This document shows positions 11,635-35,716 of a DNA stretch of 64,000 nucleotides, piece after piece. The notes under the pieces were generated by a model. That model had not been told where the DNA came from. It did no database searches and was given only the letters and a program-made list of their open reading frames with translations. A program made the translations under genes and the position numbers. How positions within the stretch are numbered: the first letter of the stretch is position 1; each line of letters opens with the position of its first letter. This DNA comes from Nocardiopsis algeriensis. GTDB lineage: Bacteria; Actinomycetota; Actinomycetes; Streptosporangiales; Streptosporangiaceae. The stretch lies in assembly GCF_014203695.1 (NCBI RefSeq), contig NZ_JACHJO010000011.1:124001-188000 (forward strand), in the 5' to 3' direction.

Positions 11635-11639
11635 TCCGC

Positions 11640-11834
11640 TCACTCCGCGGTGTTCTCGCCGGCCTCCTGGGCCTGGCTCTTCTCCTTGATCTTGCGCAGG
11701 AGCTCCTGCTTGCTCTGCCGGGCGTCGGCGCTGGGGCCGCCGGGAACGCTCCCCTTCCCTCCGCGGAGGGCGGAGCGGGAGAAGGTGCCGCGCTGGCCGC
11801 CGAGGCCGAGGAGGTTGTCGCTGTTTCTGGCCAT
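11640..11834 (-). CDS. Small basic DUF6243-like protein
   Basis: A 64-residue protein starting ARNSDNLLGLGGQRGTFSRS, then a Gly-rich RGGKGSVPGG stretch and a C-terminal charged helix (KQELLRKIKEKSQAQEAG). This NLLGxGGQR start followed by a Lys/Arg helix is the pattern I associate with DUF6243 proteins of actinomycetes. Function is unknown. It is transcribed alone, divergent from the TetR gene and convergent with the methyltransferase gene. Confidence 0.6.
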   Translation of the reverse strand: MARNSDNLLGLGGQRGTFSRSALRGGKGSVPGGPSADARQSKQELLRKIKEKSQAQEAGENTAE

Positions 11835-11901: not shown

Positions 11902-11918
11902 CGAGACGAAACGTCTCG
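11902..11918. promoter_or_regulatory. Likely TetR operator in the divergent control region
   Basis: CGAGACG-AAA-CGTCTCG is a perfect 7-3-7 inverted repeat 28 bp before the TetR start and about 68 bp before the DUF6243 start. TetR proteins commonly repress their own promoter through such a site, so this is the best operator candidate. It may also control the small divergent gene. Binding is inferred. Confidence 0.6.
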
Positions 11919-11945
11919 TCATTATCGAGCCGCTAACGTGTCGGT

Positions 11946-29473: not shown

Positions 29474-29505
29474 CATATCATCTGATAAGGAAACGAGGAG
29501 GGCAC

Positions 29506-29736
29506 ATGGCACACCACATCGAGCGTGCGGTGCATCCCACTCGCTCCCCCCAGGCCGGCCGGACCGTCCGCACCCCCGAAGAGGCCCTTCGCCTCTCCGG
29601 CGTGGCGGCGGAGCCCGTGCACGTTCCCCGGCCCCGCGAGGACGCCGACACCATCAGCTCTCAGCACCCGATCATGCACTGGGTGCTGGTCACCGACGAG
29701 AACGGGCGCACGCGACCCGAGGCTCGCTGGCTCTAG
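29506..29736 (+). CDS. Small conserved-looking protein of unknown function
   Basis: A 76-residue soluble protein, hydrophilic at the start (AHHIERAVHPTRSPQAGR) with RTPEEALRLSGVAAEPVHVPRP in the middle and a compact end MHWVLVTDENGRTRPEARWL. There is no signal peptide, cysteine or membrane helix. The gene is supported by an excellent ribosome site (GAGGAGGG seven bases before ATG) and a good promoter. I do not recognise the family. The C-terminal beta-strand/turn pattern looks conserved rather than random, but that needs a search. Confidence 0.65.
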   Translation: MAHHIERAVHPTRSPQAGRTVRTPEEALRLSGVAAEPVHVPRPREDADTISSQHPIMHWVLVTDENGRTRPEARWL

Positions 29737-30226
29737 GCCGCGACTTCTCGCGATCTCCGGCGGAGCCGAGAATCTGCGAGCAGCGGTTCAGGCGTCTCCG
29801 CGCAGGGCGCGGCGTCTTCCTGGCCCGCTGTACGAGAGTCCCGCTCCGCGAGGAGCGTCCGCCCACGACGTGCCACCCGCGGCACGCCCTCGCCGAACGG
29901 TTCGGTGAGGAGTCCCGGACGACCGAGCAACCGAGGGGCCGCCCCACCAGGGGCGGCCCCTCACGCATGTCCTGGCCATGTCGACAAATCGGCTTGACGA
30001 TAAAGGGATATAAGGGCCAACCGATAAGTGCCCTGCCGCTCCCGCCCCAGCCGCACCGCCCGAAAGGGCGGACCAGCGGCGGACGGCAGCATCCCCTTCA
30101 GGGACCCGGCCTCCCCGTACCGCACCACCACGGTGCGGGAACACCCCCGCCACCCGCCCCCGGCGGCCAGGGGGCCTGACTTTCCGGTCACCGTGCCAGA
30201 ACATGTGCGCCGACCGCCCGGGGCGC
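29737..30226. other. Gene-free stretch with one terminator
   Basis: About 490 bp between the 76-residue gene and the ABC-F promoter. Apart from the hairpin at 29933-29962 no gene, tRNA or repeat was recognised. Several antisense open frames here lack ribosome sites. Confidence 0.4.
29933..29962. terminator. Hairpin terminator downstream of the 76-residue gene
   Basis: A perfect 13-bp stem (29933-29945 with 29950-29962) with an ACCA loop, about 200 bp after the stop codon. No T-run. It insulates the ABC-F unit from upstream transcription. Confidence 0.65.
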
Positions 30227-30258
30227 TTGACACCACGTGAGACGGAACGTATCGTCTC
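30227..30258 (+). promoter_or_regulatory. ABC-F promoter with overlapping inverted repeat
   Basis: TTGACA (30227-30232), 17-bp spacer, TATCGT (30250-30255). The expected start point is at or next to the A of an ATG at 30263, giving a leaderless transcript. An inverted repeat GAGACG-N8-CGTCTC (30239-30258) covers spacer and -10 box and may be an operator. Its half-site is the same as in the TetR operator at 11902, but with different spacing. Confidence 0.65.
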
Positions 30259-30262
30259 GCTC

Positions 30263-30286
30263 ATGAGGCTCTACTTCTTCCTGTGA
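30263..30286 (+). CDS. Leader peptide MRLYFFL upstream of the ABC-F gene
   Basis: Seven codons plus TGA encode M-R-L-Y-F-F-L. The ATG sits seven bases after the -10 box, so the mRNA would begin with the start codon and be translated leaderless, as is common in actinobacteria. Short hydrophobic, aromatic leader peptides are the sensor of ribosome-mediated attenuation in front of antibiotic-resistance genes such as erm and ABC-F genes: a drug-stalled ribosome changes downstream RNA folding. The position, size and adjacent structured leader fit that model. Translation itself is inferred. Confidence 0.65.
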   Translation: MRLYFFL

Positions 30287-30522
30287 ATCCCGCGCTCCGC
30301 ACCCGCGTCGAGTTCCGCGCCGCACGTACGTGCCGCGCCGCTCCGCGGGTACTCTCCGCCGCGGTCGATCCGGAAGGGGCCTCGCGCGGGAGCGTGCACA
30401 TCCGTGCCGCTCCCCGACGGCAGTCCGCAACCTCGCATTCCTGTGTCCGCAAGGACCGTTCCGAGGTGCCCTCTCCGGACAACCGCGGCCCACCACCCCC
30501 TTTCAGAGACAGGAGGCCGCGC
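30287..30522 (+). promoter_or_regulatory. Structured leader (putative attenuator) of the ABC-F mRNA
   Basis: The 236-nt leader has several stems. A long hairpin spans 30301-30350 (outer ACCCGCG/CGCGGGT, inner GCGC-C-GCACG with a C-C mismatch). Another is 30388-30414 (GGGAGCG/CGCTCCC). A GTCC-GCAA-GGAC tetraloop hairpin lies at 30445-30456, whose 5' arm can instead pair with CGGAC at 30476-30480. Finally CGCGGCC (30484-30490) pairs with GGCCGCG (30515-30521), burying part of the AGGAGG ribosome site at 30511-30516. There is no T-run, so translational control is favoured over intrinsic termination. Confidence 0.5.
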
Positions 30523-32187
30523 ATGAGCACCGCCCGACCGCTTTCCCGTTCCCAGATCACCCTGGCCGAGGTCACCAAGCGCTACGGGGACCGCACCGTC
30601 CTCGACCGCGTCACTTTCACCATCGGCCCCGGCGAACGCGTCGGCATCATCGGCGACAACGGCTCGGGCAAGAGCACGCTGCTGCGCCTGCTCGCCGGCG
30701 AGGAGAAGGCCGACAACGGAGATGTCCTGGTCCGAGCCCCCGGTGGTATCGGCCACCTGCCCCAGACCCTGGAACACGTCGGTGTCGCGACCGGGACCGT
30801 GGGCGACGCCATCGACGACGCGCTGTACGACCTGAGGGAGCTGGAGGAGCGGATCCGCACCGCCGAGGCCTGCCTCGGCACCGCCCGCCCCGACCAGCTG
30901 AACGCCTACGGGGACCTGCTGTCCGAGTTCGAGGCCCGGGGCGGATACGACGCCGACGCCCGGGTGGAGGCCGGGCTGTACGCGCTCGGCCTGCCCGGCC
31001 TCGACCGGTCCCGTCCGCTCCACACACTCTCGGGCGGCGAGCGCTCACGCCTTGCCCTGGCATCGGTGCTGGCCGCCTCGCCCGAACTGCTCCTGCTCGA
31101 CGAACCCACCAACGACCTGGACGACCGGGCCGTCGCCTGGCTGGAGGAGCGCCTGCGCGGCCACCGCGGCACGGTCGTGGCCGTCACACACGACCGCGCG
31201 TTCCTGGCCGCGGTGACCGACACCGTTCTCGAGGTCGACCGCGACCTGCACCGGGTCCACCGGTACGGCAACGGCTACGACGGCTTCCTCGCGGCCAAGG
31301 CCGCCGAGCGCACCCGTTGGATCAGGGAGTACGACGCATGGTGCCGGGAGAGGGAGCGCTCGCGCAGGCTCGCCGAGAACAACGTCCGGCGTCTGGAGGC
31401 CGTTCCCCGCAAGATGGAGAAGGCCATTTTCGGGTCGGGAGCCTTCCGGGCCCGGGGGCGGGCGCACGGAGCGATGAGCCGGATCCGCCAGGCCAAGGAA
31501 AGGCTGGAACGGCTCACCGCCGATCCGGTCCCTCCCCCGCCGGTACCGCTGCGGATGACCGCGGCCTTCCACGGGGAGGAGCGGACGGAAGGGAACGTGT
31601 CCGCCGCGGAGCTGGAGGGGGTGCGTGTCGGCGGTCGGCTCGACGTTCCCGCGCTGCGCATCGCCCCGGGAGAGCGCGTGGTGGTCACGGGTCCCAACGG
31701 CGCCGGCAAGACGACGCTCCTGCGCGTCCTCGCCGGTGAACTGGCCCCCGACACGGGCCGTGTGTCCGTACCCGTCCGGGTCGGCCACCTGCGCCAGGAG
31801 GACGGCGACGCACCCGCCGGGCGGACCGTGCTCCAGGCCTACGCCGCCGGGCGCCTCGAGCCGGCCGAGGAGTACCGGGACGAGCTCGCTTCATTGGGAC
31901 TGTTCCGGCCCGGAGAACTGGACCAGCCTGTGGCCCACCTTTCGGTCGGCCAGCGGCGGCGTATCGAGGTCGCCCGGCTGACCTCGGGTGTGTACGGACT
32001 GCTCCTGCTGGACGAGCCGACCAACCACCTCGCCCCCGGGCTCATCGAAGAGATGGAGGAAGCGTTGTCGCACTACACCGGAGCCGTGGTGATCGTGACC
32101 CACGACCGGACGATGCGGCGCCGCCTTTCCGGCCGCCGCCTGGCGATGCACGGAGGCCGTCTGGTCGACGTCATGAACATGAAGTGA
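30523..32187 (+). CDS. ABC-F family ATPase, antibiotic-resistance (ribosomal protection) type
   Basis: A 554-residue protein with two ABC domains and no membrane segment. Domain 1 has Walker A GDNGSGKST, signature LSGGERSRLAL and Walker B LLLDEPTNDLD; domain 2 has GPNGAGKTT, LSVGQRRRIEV and LLLDEPTNHLAP. A charged inter-domain linker of about 80 residues (REYDAWCRERERSRRLAENN) would reach the tRNA site of the ribosome. This layout matches actinomycete ABC-F factors that displace ribosome-targeting drugs. I start it at ATG 30523, six bases after AGGAGG; the open frame further upstream is leader. The regulated leader supports a drug-inducible resistance role. The drug class cannot be read from sequence. 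Confidence 0.88.
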   Translation: MSTARPLSRSQITLAEVTKRYGDRTVLDRVTFTIGPGERVGIIGDNGSGKSTLLRLLAGEEKADNGDVLVRAPGGIGHLPQTLEHVGVATGTVGDAIDDALYDLRELEERIRTAEACLGTARPDQLNAYGDLLSEFEARGGYDADARVEAGLYALGLPGLDRSRPLHTLSGGERSRLALASVLAASPELLLLDEPTNDLDDRAVAWLEERLRGHRGTVVAVTHDRAFLAAVTDTVLEVDRDLHRVHRYGNGYDGFLAAKAAERTRWIREYDAWCRERERSRRLAENNVRRLEAVPRKMEKAIFGSGAFRARGRAHGAMSRIRQAKERLERLTADPVPPPPVPLRMTAAFHGEERTEGNVSAAELEGVRVGGRLDVPALRIAPGERVVVTGPNGAGKTTLLRVLAGELAPDTGRVSVPVRVGHLRQEDGDAPAGRTVLQAYAAGRLEPAEEYRDELASLGLFRPGELDQPVAHLSVGQRRRIEVARLTSGVYGLLLLDEPTNHLAPGLIEEMEEALSHYTGAVVIVTHDRTMRRRLSGRRLAMHGGRLVDVMNMK

Positions 32188-32256
32188 TTTGTCGACAAGT
32201 CGACATGACCGCAAAGCGCCAGAGAAGCCGACCGAAAATGTCCGAATGCAGCGCAT

Positions 32257-32290
32257 CCGCCGGGTGCTTCCGCACCCGGCGGGCGTGCTT
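32257..32290. terminator. Terminator between the ABC-F gene and dnaB
   Basis: An 11-bp stem (32257-32267 with 32272-32282) with a TTCC loop, followed by GCGTGCTTT on the plus strand. The genes on either side are convergent and the hairpin directly abuts the dnaB stop codon. Confidence 0.7.
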
Positions 32291-35200
32291 TATCCGGGTG
32301 CCATGTCGACGAAGCGGCTGTAGTGCCCCTGGAAGGCCACCGTGACGTCGGCGGTGGGACCGTTGCGGTGCTTGGCGAGAATCAGGTCCGCCTCACCGGC
32401 GCGCGGCGACTCCTTGTCGTGCACGTCCTCGCGGTAGAGCAGGATGACCATGTCGGCGTCCTGCTCGATGGAGTTGTGGACACTGATCCCGTTGGCCACG
32501 AAGTTGTGGGTCCCGGGCACGGTCGCGTCGAAGACCTCCTGATCCCCGAGGGGCTCGATCTCCGCGATCTCGTCCCAGAAGACATCGTTGGTGGCCACCA
32601 GGTCGAGTTCGGCGTCATCCAGGACCCGGGCCACACGCACCAGCACGTCCTTGTCCGCGACCGCGGTACGCACTCTCTCCCGAACCTCAAGGGGAACGGT
32701 GTCCGTGGTCGTGCAGGCCGTGCTCTCGGCAAGGCCGGTGCCGCAGCTTCTCGGGCTCACCGCGCGGGCTCCGTGGTGTCCCACGGCCCCGGACTCCGGC
32801 CACGGTTCTGTCTCCCGGGGCTCCGGCACGTGCCTGGGGACGGCGACCCTGTCGCCGGGTTCCAGCTTCTCCAGGGCGCGCCAGCCGTCGAGGGCGAGGA
32901 AGGGATGGTTCCCCGAGGCCGTGACCTCCTTTCCCGACCGGAGGCGGAGCCGGAAGACCTGCTTCACCCCGCTGGAGAAGACATGGGTCATGGTCCGGGG
33001 CACGAGGCGGAGCTTGTCGTCCAGGGACCACACGGGGATGTCCCTCTCCCCTGCCTCGTACAGCTCTCCCAACGTGGTCTCGGCACCGGTGTCGGCCCGC
33101 AGCACGCGGGTGTCGGCCGTCAGGCAGCCCGACTCCCGCAGGTCCGACACCTGGGGGCGTTTGTCGGTGCGCTGTTCGGGGCCTCGGTTGAGCTGGGAGA
33201 GCGCCACCACCGGTACCTCGAGCTCCTTGGCCAGGAGCTTGAGCGACCGGGACATCTCCGAGACCTCCTGCTGGCGGCTCTCCACCCGACCGGGCGAACT
33301 CATCAGCTGGAGGTAGTCGACGATGACCAGCTTGAGGTCGTGCTGCTGCTTGAGTCTTCGGCACTTGGCCCGGATCTCCATCATCGACATGTTGGGCGAG
33401 TCGTCGATGAACAGCGGAGCGTTGGCCACCTCGCCCATCCGCCGGGCCAGCCGCGCCCAGTCGTCGTCGGTCATCAGACCCGAGCGCATGGTGTGCAGCG
33501 GTACCCGCGCCTCCGCCGACAGCAGGCGCATGACGATCTCGTTGCGCCCCATCTCCAGACTGAAGAAGACCGACGTCATGTCGTTCTTGATCGACGCCGC
33601 ACGGGCGAAGTCCAAGGCCAGGGTCGAGTTGTGGGTGGGCACCATGGAACGGGTCGCGAGGAACAGGTGGCCCGGATGGTCCACCTGCACACAGCGGACC
33701 GGAACGCTCTCGACCGGGCGGACAGCGGTGATGAAGCGGGAACCGGTTCTCCTGCGGCTGCGGCCCGCGCTCCGCTCCTCGTGCGCTCCGCGCCCGAGGT
33801 CGGGCCCGAACATCTCCTGCTCCGGCTCGAAGGTGACCGTGTAGCGGGTGGAGGGCGCCTCGGGCCGGCCCGCCGGCCGCCTCGTCGACATGTCGGTGCG
33901 GTACCCCAGGCTGTGCACCAGCTCCCGGAAGCCGTTCGCCAGACGTTCGTCGGCCACCTCGAACCGGACCGACCCGTCGGCGTCCACCGTTCCGCCGGTG
34001 TCCAGCAAGCCGGCCAGGAGCTTCCTGCGCTGTTCCGCCGAGCCGCGCAGACAGGCCGGAGGAATGTGCTTGTCCCCCAGCACCCCGAGCGTACGCAGCA
34101 GGGCCCGGACACCGCCGTGGCGGCCTGTGCGCTCCCGCGCGTCGTTCCCGGGCTCCTCCTGGGGGAGGAAGACACTGTGAGCGGCGCGGTCGGTACCGAC
34201 GGGCTTGACCACCAGTCCCTCGGACTCGATGCCGAGCAGGACCTCGGGGTCCGTGGTCGTGATCCGGGCCTCTCCGGCGTCCCCGGCACCGAGCCAGGCA
34301 CCCAGGAAGTAGGGCGGCAGGAGGAGATCCTGTTCGGGCAGGTCCAGCGGCTCGGTGGTGGGTACCCAGTGGTTCGGCCCGTGGTCGGCCCCGGGCGTGC
34401 TCAGGGTACGGGCGATCTCGCTCGTGGTACGCATCTCGGGAAGGCAGGGGGCTCCGCCATGAGTCCCCGCCTCCTGCCCGGCCCGCCGCGAGGCCCTCGT
34501 GTGGGTCGGCCACCGGTGCTCCGCGTCGGCGACGACGGTGGTGCCGTCGTCGAAGGTGATCTCGTAGCAGGGGCGCCCGGTCATCACCTCGGTGGCGGCC
34601 ACCACCCGGGTCGGGGTCCCGTCCGCGGCGAGCAGTTCGCTGCCGACCTCCACCTCTCCCATCGTGGTCCAGCCCTGAGGGGTGGGCAGCGGTGTGTCCA
34701 GGGCGAGGGCCTTTCCGACAGCGGGTCGGGCGGCGATGATGATCATCTGGCCGGGGTGGAGGCCGTTGGTGAGGGCGTCGAAGTCGGCGAAGCCGGTGGG
34801 AACGCCCGTGAGGGTTCCGTCGTGGGTGGAGATGGCCTCGATCTCGTCCAGGGCGCCCGGCATGATGTCGGAGAGGGGGAGGTAGTCCTCTCCGGTGCGC
34901 TTCTCGGCGACCTTGTAGATCTCTGCCTGGGCGATGTCGACGAGGTCGTCCACCTCCCCGTCGCCCGAGTAGCCGATCTGGGCGATGCGGGTGCCGACCT
35001 CCACGAGGCGGCGCAGAACGGCCCGGTCGGAGACGATCTTGGCGTAGTAGCCCGCGTTGGCCGCGGTGGGGATGGACTCGGTGAGGGTGTGGAGGTAGAG
35101 GGCACCGCCCGCCCGGGTGGCCTCGCCGCGCTTGGTCAGCTCGGCGTTGACCGAGATGACGTCGACGGGTTCGCCCCGGGAGAAGAGGTCGACGACCGCG

Positions 35201-35379
35201 TCGTAGATGATCTGGTGGGCCGGCCGGTAGAAGTCGGCGGACCGGACGATCTCCACGACCTGCGTGATGGCGTCCTTGGAGAGGAGCATGCCGCCCAGCA
35301 CGCTCTGCTCCGCCTGGATGTCGTGGGGCGGTGTGCGCTCGTATCCGACCTCTTCGGGTGGCTCTTCGGCGACACTCAC
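32290..35379 (-). CDS. dnaB: Replicative DNA helicase DnaB with two inteins
   Basis: DnaB is the hexameric fork helicase. The 1029-codon gene encodes a 450-residue helicase once two inteins (361 and 218 residues) are removed. Start GTG at 35379 follows GGGAG; 85 codons of upstream open frame run through DnaA boxes and are not coding. Extein 1 (1-223) has the N-terminal DnaB domain and ends at the Walker A loop ARPAVGK. Extein 2 (585-751) begins STLALDFARA and carries VIVDYLQLM and the SQLNRGPEQR arginine-sensor region. Extein 3 (970-1029) holds the SIEQDADMV segment and C-terminus. Both insertions lie in motifs needed for ATPase action, so helicase activity depends on splicing. Confidence 0.95.
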   Translation of the reverse strand: MSVAEEPPEEVGYERTPPHDIQAEQSVLGGMLLSKDAITQVVEIVRSADFYRPAHQIIYDAVVDLFSRGEPVDVISVNAELTKRGEATRAGGALYLHTLTESIPTAANAGYYAKIVSDRAVLRRLVEVGTRIAQIGYSGDGEVDDLVDIAQAEIYKVAEKRTGEDYLPLSDIMPGALDEIEAISTHDGTLTGVPTGFADFDALTNGLHPGQMIIIAARPAVGKALALDTPLPTPQGWTTMGEVEVGSELLAADGTPTRVVAATEVMTGRPCYEITFDDGTTVVADAEHRWPTHTRASRRAGQEAGTHGGAPCLPEMRTTSEIARTLSTPGADHGPNHWVPTTEPLDLPEQDLLLPPYFLGAWLGAGDAGEARITTTDPEVLLGIESEGLVVKPVGTDRAAHSVFLPQEEPGNDARERTGRHGGVRALLRTLGVLGDKHIPPACLRGSAEQRRKLLAGLLDTGGTVDADGSVRFEVADERLANGFRELVHSLGYRTDMSTRRPAGRPEAPSTRYTVTFEPEQEMFGPDLGRGAHEERSAGRSRRRTGSRFITAVRPVESVPVRCVQVDHPGHLFLATRSMVPTHNSTLALDFARAASIKNDMTSVFFSLEMGRNEIVMRLLSAEARVPLHTMRSGLMTDDDWARLARRMGEVANAPLFIDDSPNMSMMEIRAKCRRLKQQHDLKLVIVDYLQLMSSPGRVESRQQEVSEMSRSLKLLAKELEVPVVALSQLNRGPEQRTDKRPQVSDLRESGCLTADTRVLRADTGAETTLGELYEAGERDIPVWSLDDKLRLVPRTMTHVFSSGVKQVFRLRLRSGKEVTASGNHPFLALDGWRALEKLEPGDRVAVPRHVPEPRETEPWPESGAVGHHGARAVSPRSCGTGLAESTACTTTDTVPLEVRERVRTAVADKDVLVRVARVLDDAELDLVATNDVFWDEIAEIEPLGDQEVFDATVPGTHNFVANGISVHNSIEQDADMVILLYREDVHDKESPRAGEADLILAKHRNGPTADVTVAFQGHYSRFVDMAPG
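32473..33126 (-). mobile_element. Class 1 mini-intein at the DnaB RESG|S site
   Basis: This encodes 218 residues (DnaB 752-969) inserted between RESG and SIEQD. It starts with Cys (CLTADTRVL), has block B GNHPFLALDGW with the conserved His, block F EVFDATVPGTHNFVANG and ends SVHN before Ser +1. These are all the residues of a standard class 1 intein. The central 80 residues (about 98-178) lack any LAGLIDADG or HNH motif, so this is a mini-intein without endonuclease. The insertion site is one known for DnaB inteins in cyanobacteria and mycobacteria. Confidence 0.9.
33628..34710 (-). mobile_element. Class 3 intein in DnaB Walker A with a degenerate LAGLIDADG endonuclease
   Basis: This encodes 361 residues (DnaB 224-584) between GK and S of the Walker A loop. 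The first residue is Ala, not Cys or Ser. The W-C-T marker of class 3 inteins is present: Trp in EHRW (block B), Cys in VPVRC (block F) and Thr in PTHN (block G), with C-terminal His-Asn and Ser +1. Splicing would use the block F Cys for the first branched intermediate. A homing endonuclease domain is recognisable by LGAWLGAG and LAGLLDTGG, but the catalytic Asp of each motif is replaced (Ala and Gly). DNA cleavage is therefore probably lost while splicing residues remain intact. Confidence 0.9.
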
Positions 35380-35581
35380 GAACAATCTCCCTGGACCGTG
35401 CTCCGTGTCGGCCCAGGCGTGGACCGACCTTTCCAGGATGCCCCATGGCAGGTGCCCGACCGGCCGGGGGCGGACGGGCTGTGGATCACGCACCGACGCC
35501 GGAACACGGGTTTCGGACGGGCTTTTACCACTCGCCGGAGGTCTTTGCAGGGCAGAGGGACCACAAGTTGTACACATCACC

Positions 35582-35716
35582 TGTGGATAACTTTCACGCA
35601 ACCTGTGGATATATGGCCTGACCTGCGAAGACAACCCTTGCGACAGGTGCGTGCGGGATGCCTCACAGGGCCCGCCAGACCGAGTTATCCACAGGCTTTC
35701 AGGGGCCTGTGGATAA
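35582..35716. promoter_or_regulatory. DnaA-box cluster between dnaB and the MATE gene
   Basis: Three perfect DnaA boxes (TGTGGATAA at 35582, TTATCCACA at 35685, TGTGGATAA at 35708) and one near-match (TGTGGATAT at 35604) lie in the intergenic region, with weaker TGTGGA sites at 35480 and 35729. Spacings of 22-23 bp within each pair suggest same-face binding. Neighbouring sequence 35560-35625 is AT-rich for this genome. The site could let DnaA regulate dnaB and the divergent transporter, or titrate DnaA. It is not the main oriC, which should lie beyond 64000. The rest of 35380-35760 has no gene. Confidence 0.8.

Follow-up and report, generated by a model that had tools for sequence, protein, structure and literature searches.

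A predicted leaderless mini-ORF, a covarying hairpin and a TetR-type operator upstream of an ABC-F gene of Nocardiopsis algeriensis: candidate elements of a two-layer control

The ABC-F locus and its promoter

In this work, we analysed a 64,000-nucleotide (nt) stretch of Nocardiopsis algeriensis DNA (contig NZ_JACHJO010000011.1, positions 124,001 to 188,000; hereafter the window, whose numbering is used throughout) with respect to the control of a gene for a ribosomal-protection-type ABC-F protein. The gene (30523..32187, + strand) encodes a product of 554 amino acids (aa), designated P0001. It scored 401.6 bits against the NCBI model of ribosomal protection-like ABC-F proteins (NF000355), above the curated cut-off of 380, which upholds the ABC-F identity proposed in the first-pass annotation of this DNA. 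The best-scoring model was NF000171, covering the TlrC/CarA/OleB/SrmB (ARE4) group; the score of 775.3 bits is below its curated cut-off of 800, and judged by these values P0001 is a near relative of that family and not a member. In the published classification, TlrC, CarA, OleB and SrmB belong to ARE4 and confer macrolide resistance, VmlR belongs to ARE2 and LmrC to ARE5 (PMC6723617).

The leader transcript has a promoter TTGACA-N17-TATCGT (30227..30255, + strand; 10 of 12 matches), with the −35 box TTGACA at 30227-30232, a 17-nt spacer and the −10 box TATCGT at 30250-30255. This was the sole sigma-70-like site detected within 29501-32600, where shuffled sequences gave 0.1 on average. Seven nt behind the −10 box lies the ATG (30263) of a mini-ORF (open reading frame), ATG AGG CTC TAC TTC TTC CTG TGA (30263..30286, + strand), which encodes MRLYFFL and is the proposed sensor. 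Its stop is separated by 236 nt from the ATG of the ABC-F gene at 30523, preceded by the Shine-Dalgarno (SD) sequence AGGAGG (30511..30516, + strand). On re-reading, the positions earlier assigned to all these elements proved correct. The promoter geometry predicts a transcript start at or beside 30263, and we infer from it that transcription begins at the A of the mini-ORF AUG. For comparison, the distance from the −10 box to the start is given in PMC8079986 as 6.3 nt on average, with 88.7% at 5–7 nt.

The mini-ORF is conserved within the genus

The first-pass annotation had suggested looking for the short ORF, as well as for compensatory pairs, upstream of orthologous ABC-F genes. The genus set comprised 40 genomes, each with some match to P0001 (ABC paralogues included), and close orthologues (67–76% identity, whole or partial) were found in at least 30 genus genomes besides the window's own. 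Thirty loci, our own included, were fetched (L002-L031; L and G numbers denote loci and genomes, respectively); L028, which runs into a contig end, was excluded from all leader counts, leaving 29 readable loci. In all 29, a tiny ORF was present downstream of a TANNNT box, which itself follows a −35 region containing TTG. The gap between the −10 box and the ATG was 7 nt in 27 loci and 8 nt in two (L021, L030), and none of the 29 had an SD-like GGAG, GAGG or AGGA at −16 to −5, as expected from the leaderless geometry that had been proposed. A strict test demanding the promoter, exactly 7 nt, ATG and an ORF of 3–9 codons was passed by 27/29 loci and by none in 50 shuffled sets.

The encoded peptides are MRLYFFL, MRLYIFL, MRLFIFL, MRLTFL, MRLIFL, MRLYFL, MRLYHFL, MRLYHSL, MRMYHSL, MRLQIFL, MRLYIHL, MRLHIHL, MRLYYFL, MRLYFHL, MRLYF, MRLI, MRL, MLL (L023) and MLP (L027). 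Codon 2 is AGG in 27 of the 29 mini-ORFs, codon 3 specifies Leu in 27 (CTG 19, CTC 4, CTT 4), and Leu is also the final codon in 26. The start is constant. The length varies, owing to the loss of 3 nt in frame in L005, L006 and L010 and to newly arisen stop codons in L007, L008 and L021, and no mini-ORF is longer than 7 codons; as a background, the first stop fell at codon 4–9 for 129/4640 leader positions (2.8%). When the pattern TANCGT-N7-ATGAGGCT was sought in the 40 genomes, 24 matches were obtained, one in each of 24 genomes, while the reversed-pattern control gave 0. By position, 23 of these lie upstream of an ABC-F orthologue, and one (G022) lies upstream of a fragment of that gene. In the latter case, the exact leader pattern (G022:C11:67530) is followed only by a C-terminal ABC-F fragment (67922-68392), which looks like a decayed gene. 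The paralogue loci of the window's own genome (L032-L035) were also checked, and no leaderless mini-ORF candidate was detected there.

Different mini-ORFs precede ABC-F homologues outside the genus

ABC-F homologues (about 50–66% identity) in other genera and families, including Streptomyces colonosanans (L039) and S. fragilis (L040), carry different mini-ORFs: MGSL, MGTL, GTG-GTL, MGYCFL, MGYRFL, MGYLFL, MRYFL, MGSLFL, MGFGIIYL, MARHYYFL, MGSYYFFR, MGTLIYS, MGTLIFQ, MGTLV, MHYFFFV, MGTLLILL and MGTLLFFL. Of the 22 that were tabulated, 16 start 7 nt from a TANNNT box, two start 6 nt and three 10 nt from one, and in the remaining one no box is in register; an SD-like sequence is present in just one (L104). 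Terminal Leu was found in 18 of 23 (the 22 and L130), and codon 2 is mostly GGN. By automatic criteria, 10 of 42 loci scored, the MSH of L126 being a doubtful one among them; three of the 45 loci (L125, L137, L140) were left out of this count because the gene start was not placeable. Thus, many homologues are without the element or have another form of it. The ABC-F homologues of G383, G401 and G354 contain one TGA within the matched frame.

These comparisons do not support the earlier suggestion that a drug stalls the ribosome on the aromatic codons, since MRL, MRLI, MLL, MLP, MGSL and MGTL have no aromatic residue: aromatic codons are dispensable, and the terminal Leu codon is the rule. They also bear on the idea that the mini-ORF senses general translation stress or an amino acid, through its rare AGG codon or Leu, and not a drug. 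In favour of it, codon 2 is kept as AGG in the genus while codon 3 varies among CTG, CTC and CTT; the shift of codon 2 to GGN elsewhere and the nature of the downstream gene, a ribosomal-protection-type ABC-F, both speak against it, and we consider such a sensor very improbable.

A covarying hairpin behind the mini-ORF

To describe the leader, we aligned 25 of the 29 genus leaders (alignment A1), dropping L007, L011, L012 and L015, whose leaders are long and contain duplications close to the start of the gene. In these four, duplications of the SD-plus-start region lengthen the leader to 322–448 nt. RNAalifold placed a hairpin at columns 28-45 with 121-144 (consensus energy −5.2 kcal/mol). In the window, it occupies 30290..30364 (+ strand), beginning 3 nt after the mini-ORF stop, and is built from the pairs 30290-30293 with 30361-30364, 30299-30302 with 30349-30352 (one mismatch in the window) and 30305-30307 with 30344-30346. 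It begins 0–3 nt behind the stop in 22/25 leaders and 7–11 nt behind it in L021, L023 and L027, which have 3-4-codon ORFs. Of the cells of the hairpin, 93.3% are paired, and double changes number 22 vs. 6.7 in shuffles; the covariation score of the hairpin was matched by 0/500 shuffles, and the number of pairs with double changes by 6/500. Shifting the partner strand reduced pairing to 17–50%, a control biased toward the hairpin because the latter was derived from the A1 sequences. The compensatory pairs in the leader thus do exist, and they lie in the hairpin behind the mini-ORF.

Outside the genus, 13 loci have the hairpin GAC.GCG-U[AC]-GAGC..GCUC-CGC.GUC 3′ of the mini-ORF. Counted from the start of the final sense codon, its base follows after 19 nt in eight of the 17 loci listed and after 11, 20, 21, 25 or 31 nt in the others, L157 being mis-scored in this list. 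In L099 and L100, the end of the mini-ORF is duplicated (TTCCTGTGATCG in L099, imperfectly in L100), placing the hairpin 12 nt farther downstream than in L146.

We then aligned 13 of the 16 non-genus loci known at that stage (alignment A2; L104, L139 and L140 left out) and built from them the covariance model R1, which contains zero genus sequences. R1 matched the window at 30263-30353 (E = 6.4e-5), beginning exactly at the mini-ORF AUG; at E ≤ 1, it matched 12 of the 28 other genus leaders as well, every match starting at the mini-ORF AUG. Among 65 sources, 12 matches had E < 0.01; every one was a mini-ORF upstream of an ABC-F gene, and nine, the window's among them, were genus leaders. Over 394 whole genomes, 60 had a match at E ≤ 0.001, and the top 13 (E ≤ 5.4e-7) were all upstream of ABC-F genes, nine being training loci and four new. 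Of the 30 whole-genome loci inspected, 14 lie upstream of ABC-F genes and 16 do not; these 16 weak matches, most of which resemble coding sequence, were judged to be due to chance. In its own genome, the window element was the single match (E = 8.7e-4). A search with Rfam 15 found no family in the window leader, and the whole window yielded only the signal recognition particle (SRP) RNA and two tRNAs at gathering scores; on 10 leader-bearing loci nothing was obtained at E ≤ 0.5.

Competing structures in the leader

The 3′ strand of the hairpin base may have another partner: CCGCGG at 30359-30364 can pair with CCGCGG at 30483-30488 (30359..30488, + strand), which excludes the base of the hairpin. 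This alternative helix (2:3) is paired in 87.5% of cells in the 25 leaders and is part of the minimum-energy fold of the window; we keep it as a proposal for the alternative structure. The window leader as a whole folds with z = −3.24, and one of 200 shuffles was equally good.

The same minimum-energy fold has the SD sequence engaged by the end of the mini-ORF, and this leads to an explanation by translational attenuation alone. The SD of the ABC-F gene would be masked either by the stem 30484-30490/30515-30521 or by the 3′ end of the mini-ORF (CUUCCUGU, 30277-30284, with ACAGGAGG), and a stalled ribosome would unmask it. In the window, masking the mini-ORF raised the computed SD accessibility from 0.03 to 0.23–0.28 when the ribosome was placed at codon 3, 5 or 7, and to 0.04 when it was placed at the AUG. 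Leaders with a shorter ORF retain a CUUCCU element 3′ of the stop (L007, L023; partly L021, L027). There is also a precedent in E. coli, where toiL is reported to pair with the SD of topAI and unmasking by a stalled ribosome was proposed (PMC12121999). The comparison of leaders did not bear this out. Over 28 of the 29 leaders (L007 left out), the mean change in SD accessibility on ribosome masking was only +0.01 to +0.03, no better than that with control masks (−0.004 to +0.06). The mini-ORF:SD duplexes were not clearly stronger than those of shuffled mini-ORFs (29 loci; lowest p 0.075), and this pairing showed no covariation above shuffles. As to the stem invoked in the first-pass annotation, 30484-30490 (CGCGGCC) and 30515-30521 (GGCCGCG) can indeed form 7 pairs, but the stem is absent from the minimum-energy fold and is not conserved, with 68% of cells paired in the 25 leaders and covariation not above shuffles. 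Hence, we regard SD masking alone as an unlikely explanation.

The composition of the leaders would fit a different mode of attenuation. All 25 are C-rich and G-poor (45% C and 27% G overall; skew −0.17 to −0.32), and in the window 3.3% of 230-nt stretches reach the skew of its own leader; such leaders are compatible with Rho-type termination. A weak terminator candidate overlaps the mini-ORF itself (30254-30269). Attenuation through the hairpin in a C-rich leader, by premature termination of transcription, appears more likely than simple SD masking.

A TetR-type operator and its likely regulator

The first-pass annotation had overlooked a further layer, namely a TetR-type operator together with a TetR gene. 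A degenerate operator copy, ACGGAACGTATCGTCTCG (30242..30259, + strand), overlies the −10 box of the ABC-F promoter, with 3 mismatches to ACGAGACGTATCGTCTTG. The second copy, ACGAGACGTTTCGTCTCG (11902..11919, − strand; 2 mismatches to the consensus), contains the perfect palindrome CGAGACG-N3-CGTCTCG and precedes the gene of a 206-aa regulator, P0002 (11946..12566, + strand), located 18 kb from the ABC-F promoter. P0002 has the domains TetR_N and TetR_C_11 and belongs to the TetR family (PF00440, 54.4 bits, cut-off 24; PF16859, 109.2 bits, cut-off 32). The window holds two operator sites with at most 3 mismatches, where 0.02 would be expected. On the other side of this operator, a small gene (11639-11834, − strand; start MARNSDNLLGLGG) is read divergently from the TetR gene and may be under the same control.

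In most genus leaders, the −10 box lies within ACGAGACGTATCGTCTYG. Exact copies of ACGAGACGTANCGTCTYG number 37 in 25/40 genus genomes, with 0 in the control. Thirty of these sites were fetched: 10 proved to be ABC-F leaders, and the 20 non-leader sites all adjoin a P0002 orthologue (60–72% identity); four of the remaining seven coincide with ABC-F leaders by position. In a scan of the window's own genome with CGAGACG-N3-CGTCTYG, the TetR site was the only exact palindrome, and the ABC-F site was not among the matches. Outside the genus, 14/46 loci scanned carry, in the 900 nt upstream, an operator copy that has no more than 4 mismatches; the remainder show 5–8 mismatches, and some copies extend into the −35 box (TCTTGCCA). 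In four non-genus loci (L103, L106, L108, L120), a P0002 relative (54–63% identity) is encoded no farther than 1.5 kb upstream of the ABC-F gene and on the opposite strand to it, and more distant TetR genes (30–44%) are present in nine others. In L069, L074, L076, L077, L090, L093 and L098, a second operator-like palindrome follows at a distance of about 50 bp, farther from the TetR gene than the first. Taken together, these data suggest that P0002 is likely to be autoregulated and to repress the ABC-F promoter; a link between repressor and operator is probable for the genus, and the case for it is weaker in this window.

With such rare and well-placed operators, one may ask whether TetR is the sole drug sensor and the mini-ORF with its hairpin is a constitutive device, serving, e.g., to fix the transcript start or to stabilise the 5′ end. 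The occurrence of a TetR relative near ABC-F genes in other genomes agrees with this, as do several homologues with an operator and no mini-ORF found in the scans there. It leaves unexplained, however, why the start and an early stop are conserved while the peptide varies, and the element is also present in L039, L040, L101 and L128, where no operator was seen within 900 nt; we hold this view to be rather improbable. The operators also allowed us to assess whether the ATG and the stop are functionless by-products of a conserved promoter and operator, as the position of ATGAGG next to the strongly conserved −10 box and operator might imply. None of the 20 TetR-side operator copies has ATGAGG behind it, the stop shifts and yet is always early, and the hairpin covaries, so that we give this notion almost no credence.

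Another palindromic block, GTGA[TC]-N3/4-GTCTCAC of the GTGA-N8-TCAC type, is conserved about 12 nt 5′ of the −35 box in most genus leaders and is degenerate in the window, near 30186-30198; it could be the site of a further regulator.

Discussion

The conserved order of promoter, mini-ORF and hairpin, the covariation of the hairpin and the conservation of the operators lead us to propose that the ABC-F gene is under a two-layer inducible control, in which TetR repression is combined with attenuation by a leaderless mini-ORF and a hairpin. We estimate the probability of this reading at about 0.6. In the first layer, the TetR protein encoded 18 kb away would bind two palindromes, one overlapping the −10 box and one upstream of the TetR gene, presumably responding to a ligand. 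In the second, the transcript would begin at the A of the AUG at 30263, and a ribosome would load at the 5′ end without any SD sequence and make the 7-residue peptide. With no drug present, the ribosome would terminate and depart, the hairpin 30290-30364 would form, and ABC-F expression would be attenuated, more likely by premature termination of transcription. A drug that binds the tunnel or the peptidyl transferase centre, of the type on which the ABC-F protein acts, would halt the ribosome at the last Leu codon/stop or at M-R-L. The stalled ribosome would then cover the 5′ arm of the hairpin (30290-30293), leaving 30359-30364 free to pair with 30483-30488, and ABC-F would be made. Judged from the relatives of the ABC-F protein, a macrolide-type inducer would be our guess, and the occurrence of three-codon ORFs such as MRL and MLL suggests that the drugs act on very short chains.

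A number of observations weigh against this reading. As to the repressor, the operator at the ABC-F promoter of the window is a 3-mismatch copy; in its own genome, CGAGACG-N3-CGTCTYG with one mismatch gave 3 forward and 1 reverse matches vs. 5 and 3 for the reversed-pattern control; and G006 and G014 have the TetR gene with its site, and no close ABC-F orthologue was found in them. Many homologues show the operator alone, the mini-ORF alone, or neither. As to the leader, no terminator-like site with a T-run was detected inside the 236 nt. The RNAalifold covariation term of the hairpin is small (−0.2 kcal/mol), one of its five measures, further pair types, was not above shuffles (405/500), and the hairpin was predicted from the same sequences on which the pairs were counted. 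For helix 2:3, covariation in the 25 leaders was not above shuffles, and RNAalifold did not predict it. Finally, at E ≤ 1, R1 recovers just 13/29 genus leaders, and of the 10 orthologue-bearing genus genomes in the whole-genome scan, only the window's own had its leader at E ≤ 0.001.

Among the closest known systems is MsrDL (MYLIFM), the leader of msrD in Streptococcus, likewise a very short hydrophobic peptide before a macrolide ABC-F gene. There, the drug-bound ribosome is reported to stall at the stop codon, RF1/RF2 action is blocked, and an intrinsic terminator is bypassed (PMC10314930). In addition to that terminator, MsrDL possesses a ribosome-binding site, whereas here we see no SD and no T-run terminator in the leader, the last residue is usually Leu, and a TetR-type operator is present; no sequence relation was shown. 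The M-R-L of the genus peptides belongs to the arrest sequence of ErmDL, for which stalling at R-L-R is reported, the P site being occupied by Leu (PMC8298421). The genus peptides do not have the Arg/Lys acceptor of the +X+ motif, the next codon being Y, F, T, I, H, Q or stop, and since the mini-ORFs are without this basic acceptor, an MsrDL-like arrest at Leu-stop would fit better.

Minimal upstream ORFs (uORFs) with attenuation were described for other ABC-F genes: MIN for VmlR (PMC9226507), MR[I/M] for CplR (PMC10201436), MLV for are5sc (PMC12421871) and MVGDDDISG for tiaA, while lmrC also has a uORF (this group is covered jointly by PMC9226507, PMC10201436, PMC12421871 and PMC8546547). The 5′ untranslated regions (5′UTRs) of tiaA and are5sc measure 194 and 232 nt, which is another point of resemblance. 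SD or ribosome-binding sites are described there for the uORFs of VmlR, are5sc and tiaA, which sets them apart from our case. The word "leaderless" is absent from the MsrD and LmrC papers, and "leader" and "attenuat" do not occur in the main text of PMC8388888 (srmB).

The first-pass annotation had regarded a leaderless sensor ORF as unusual. No leaderless leader peptide of a drug-responsive ABC-F gene or antibiotic sensor was found in the literature searched, outside of which lay most subscription papers and all preprints. For amino-acid attenuators, leaderless leader peptides are reported in S. lividans, and the Streptomyces examples leuL, trpL, ilvL, metL and thrL lie on leaderless transcripts, followed by hairpins and in several cases without a U-rich terminator (PMC8079986). 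The absence of a leader before such a peptide is therefore no novelty in itself. They differ from the present one in being assigned to amino acids, in their length of 12–29 codons and in their position before genes for biosynthesis, uptake or aminoacyl-tRNA synthetases. In the same source, leaderless transcripts are put at 17–21% of mapped transcripts in two Streptomyces and at 17% in S. lividans.

More tentatively, and with a good deal less confidence than for the window itself, we suggest that the leaderless AUG, the 3-8-codon ORF usually ending in Leu-stop and the hairpin GAC.GCG-U[AC]-GAGC..GCUC may constitute a recurring and undescribed actinobacterial RNA element. It would be the drug sensor of a group of macrolide-type ABC-F genes, read close behind RNA polymerase, with TetR on the same promoter providing AND-type control. 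Since ribosome loading at nucleotide 1 would come directly after promoter escape, RNA polymerase would be only a few tens of bases ahead when the sensor is read, and this early loading would replace the pause sites on which such attenuators rely in Bacillus.

To our knowledge, leaderless mRNAs have few assigned regulatory roles. If the proposal is true, leader-peptide antibiotic sensing can operate from leaderless mRNAs. The roughly 36 distinct natural peptides of 3–8 codons, from MRLYFFL down to MRL, MLL and MGSL, could be used to ask for the shortest drug-arrest peptide, and the RNA signature is searchable and marks one group of ABC-F genes.

A neighbouring gene

The convergent neighbour of the ABC-F gene (32290-35634, − strand), which we take to resemble dnaB, has a translation interrupted by intein-like insertions.

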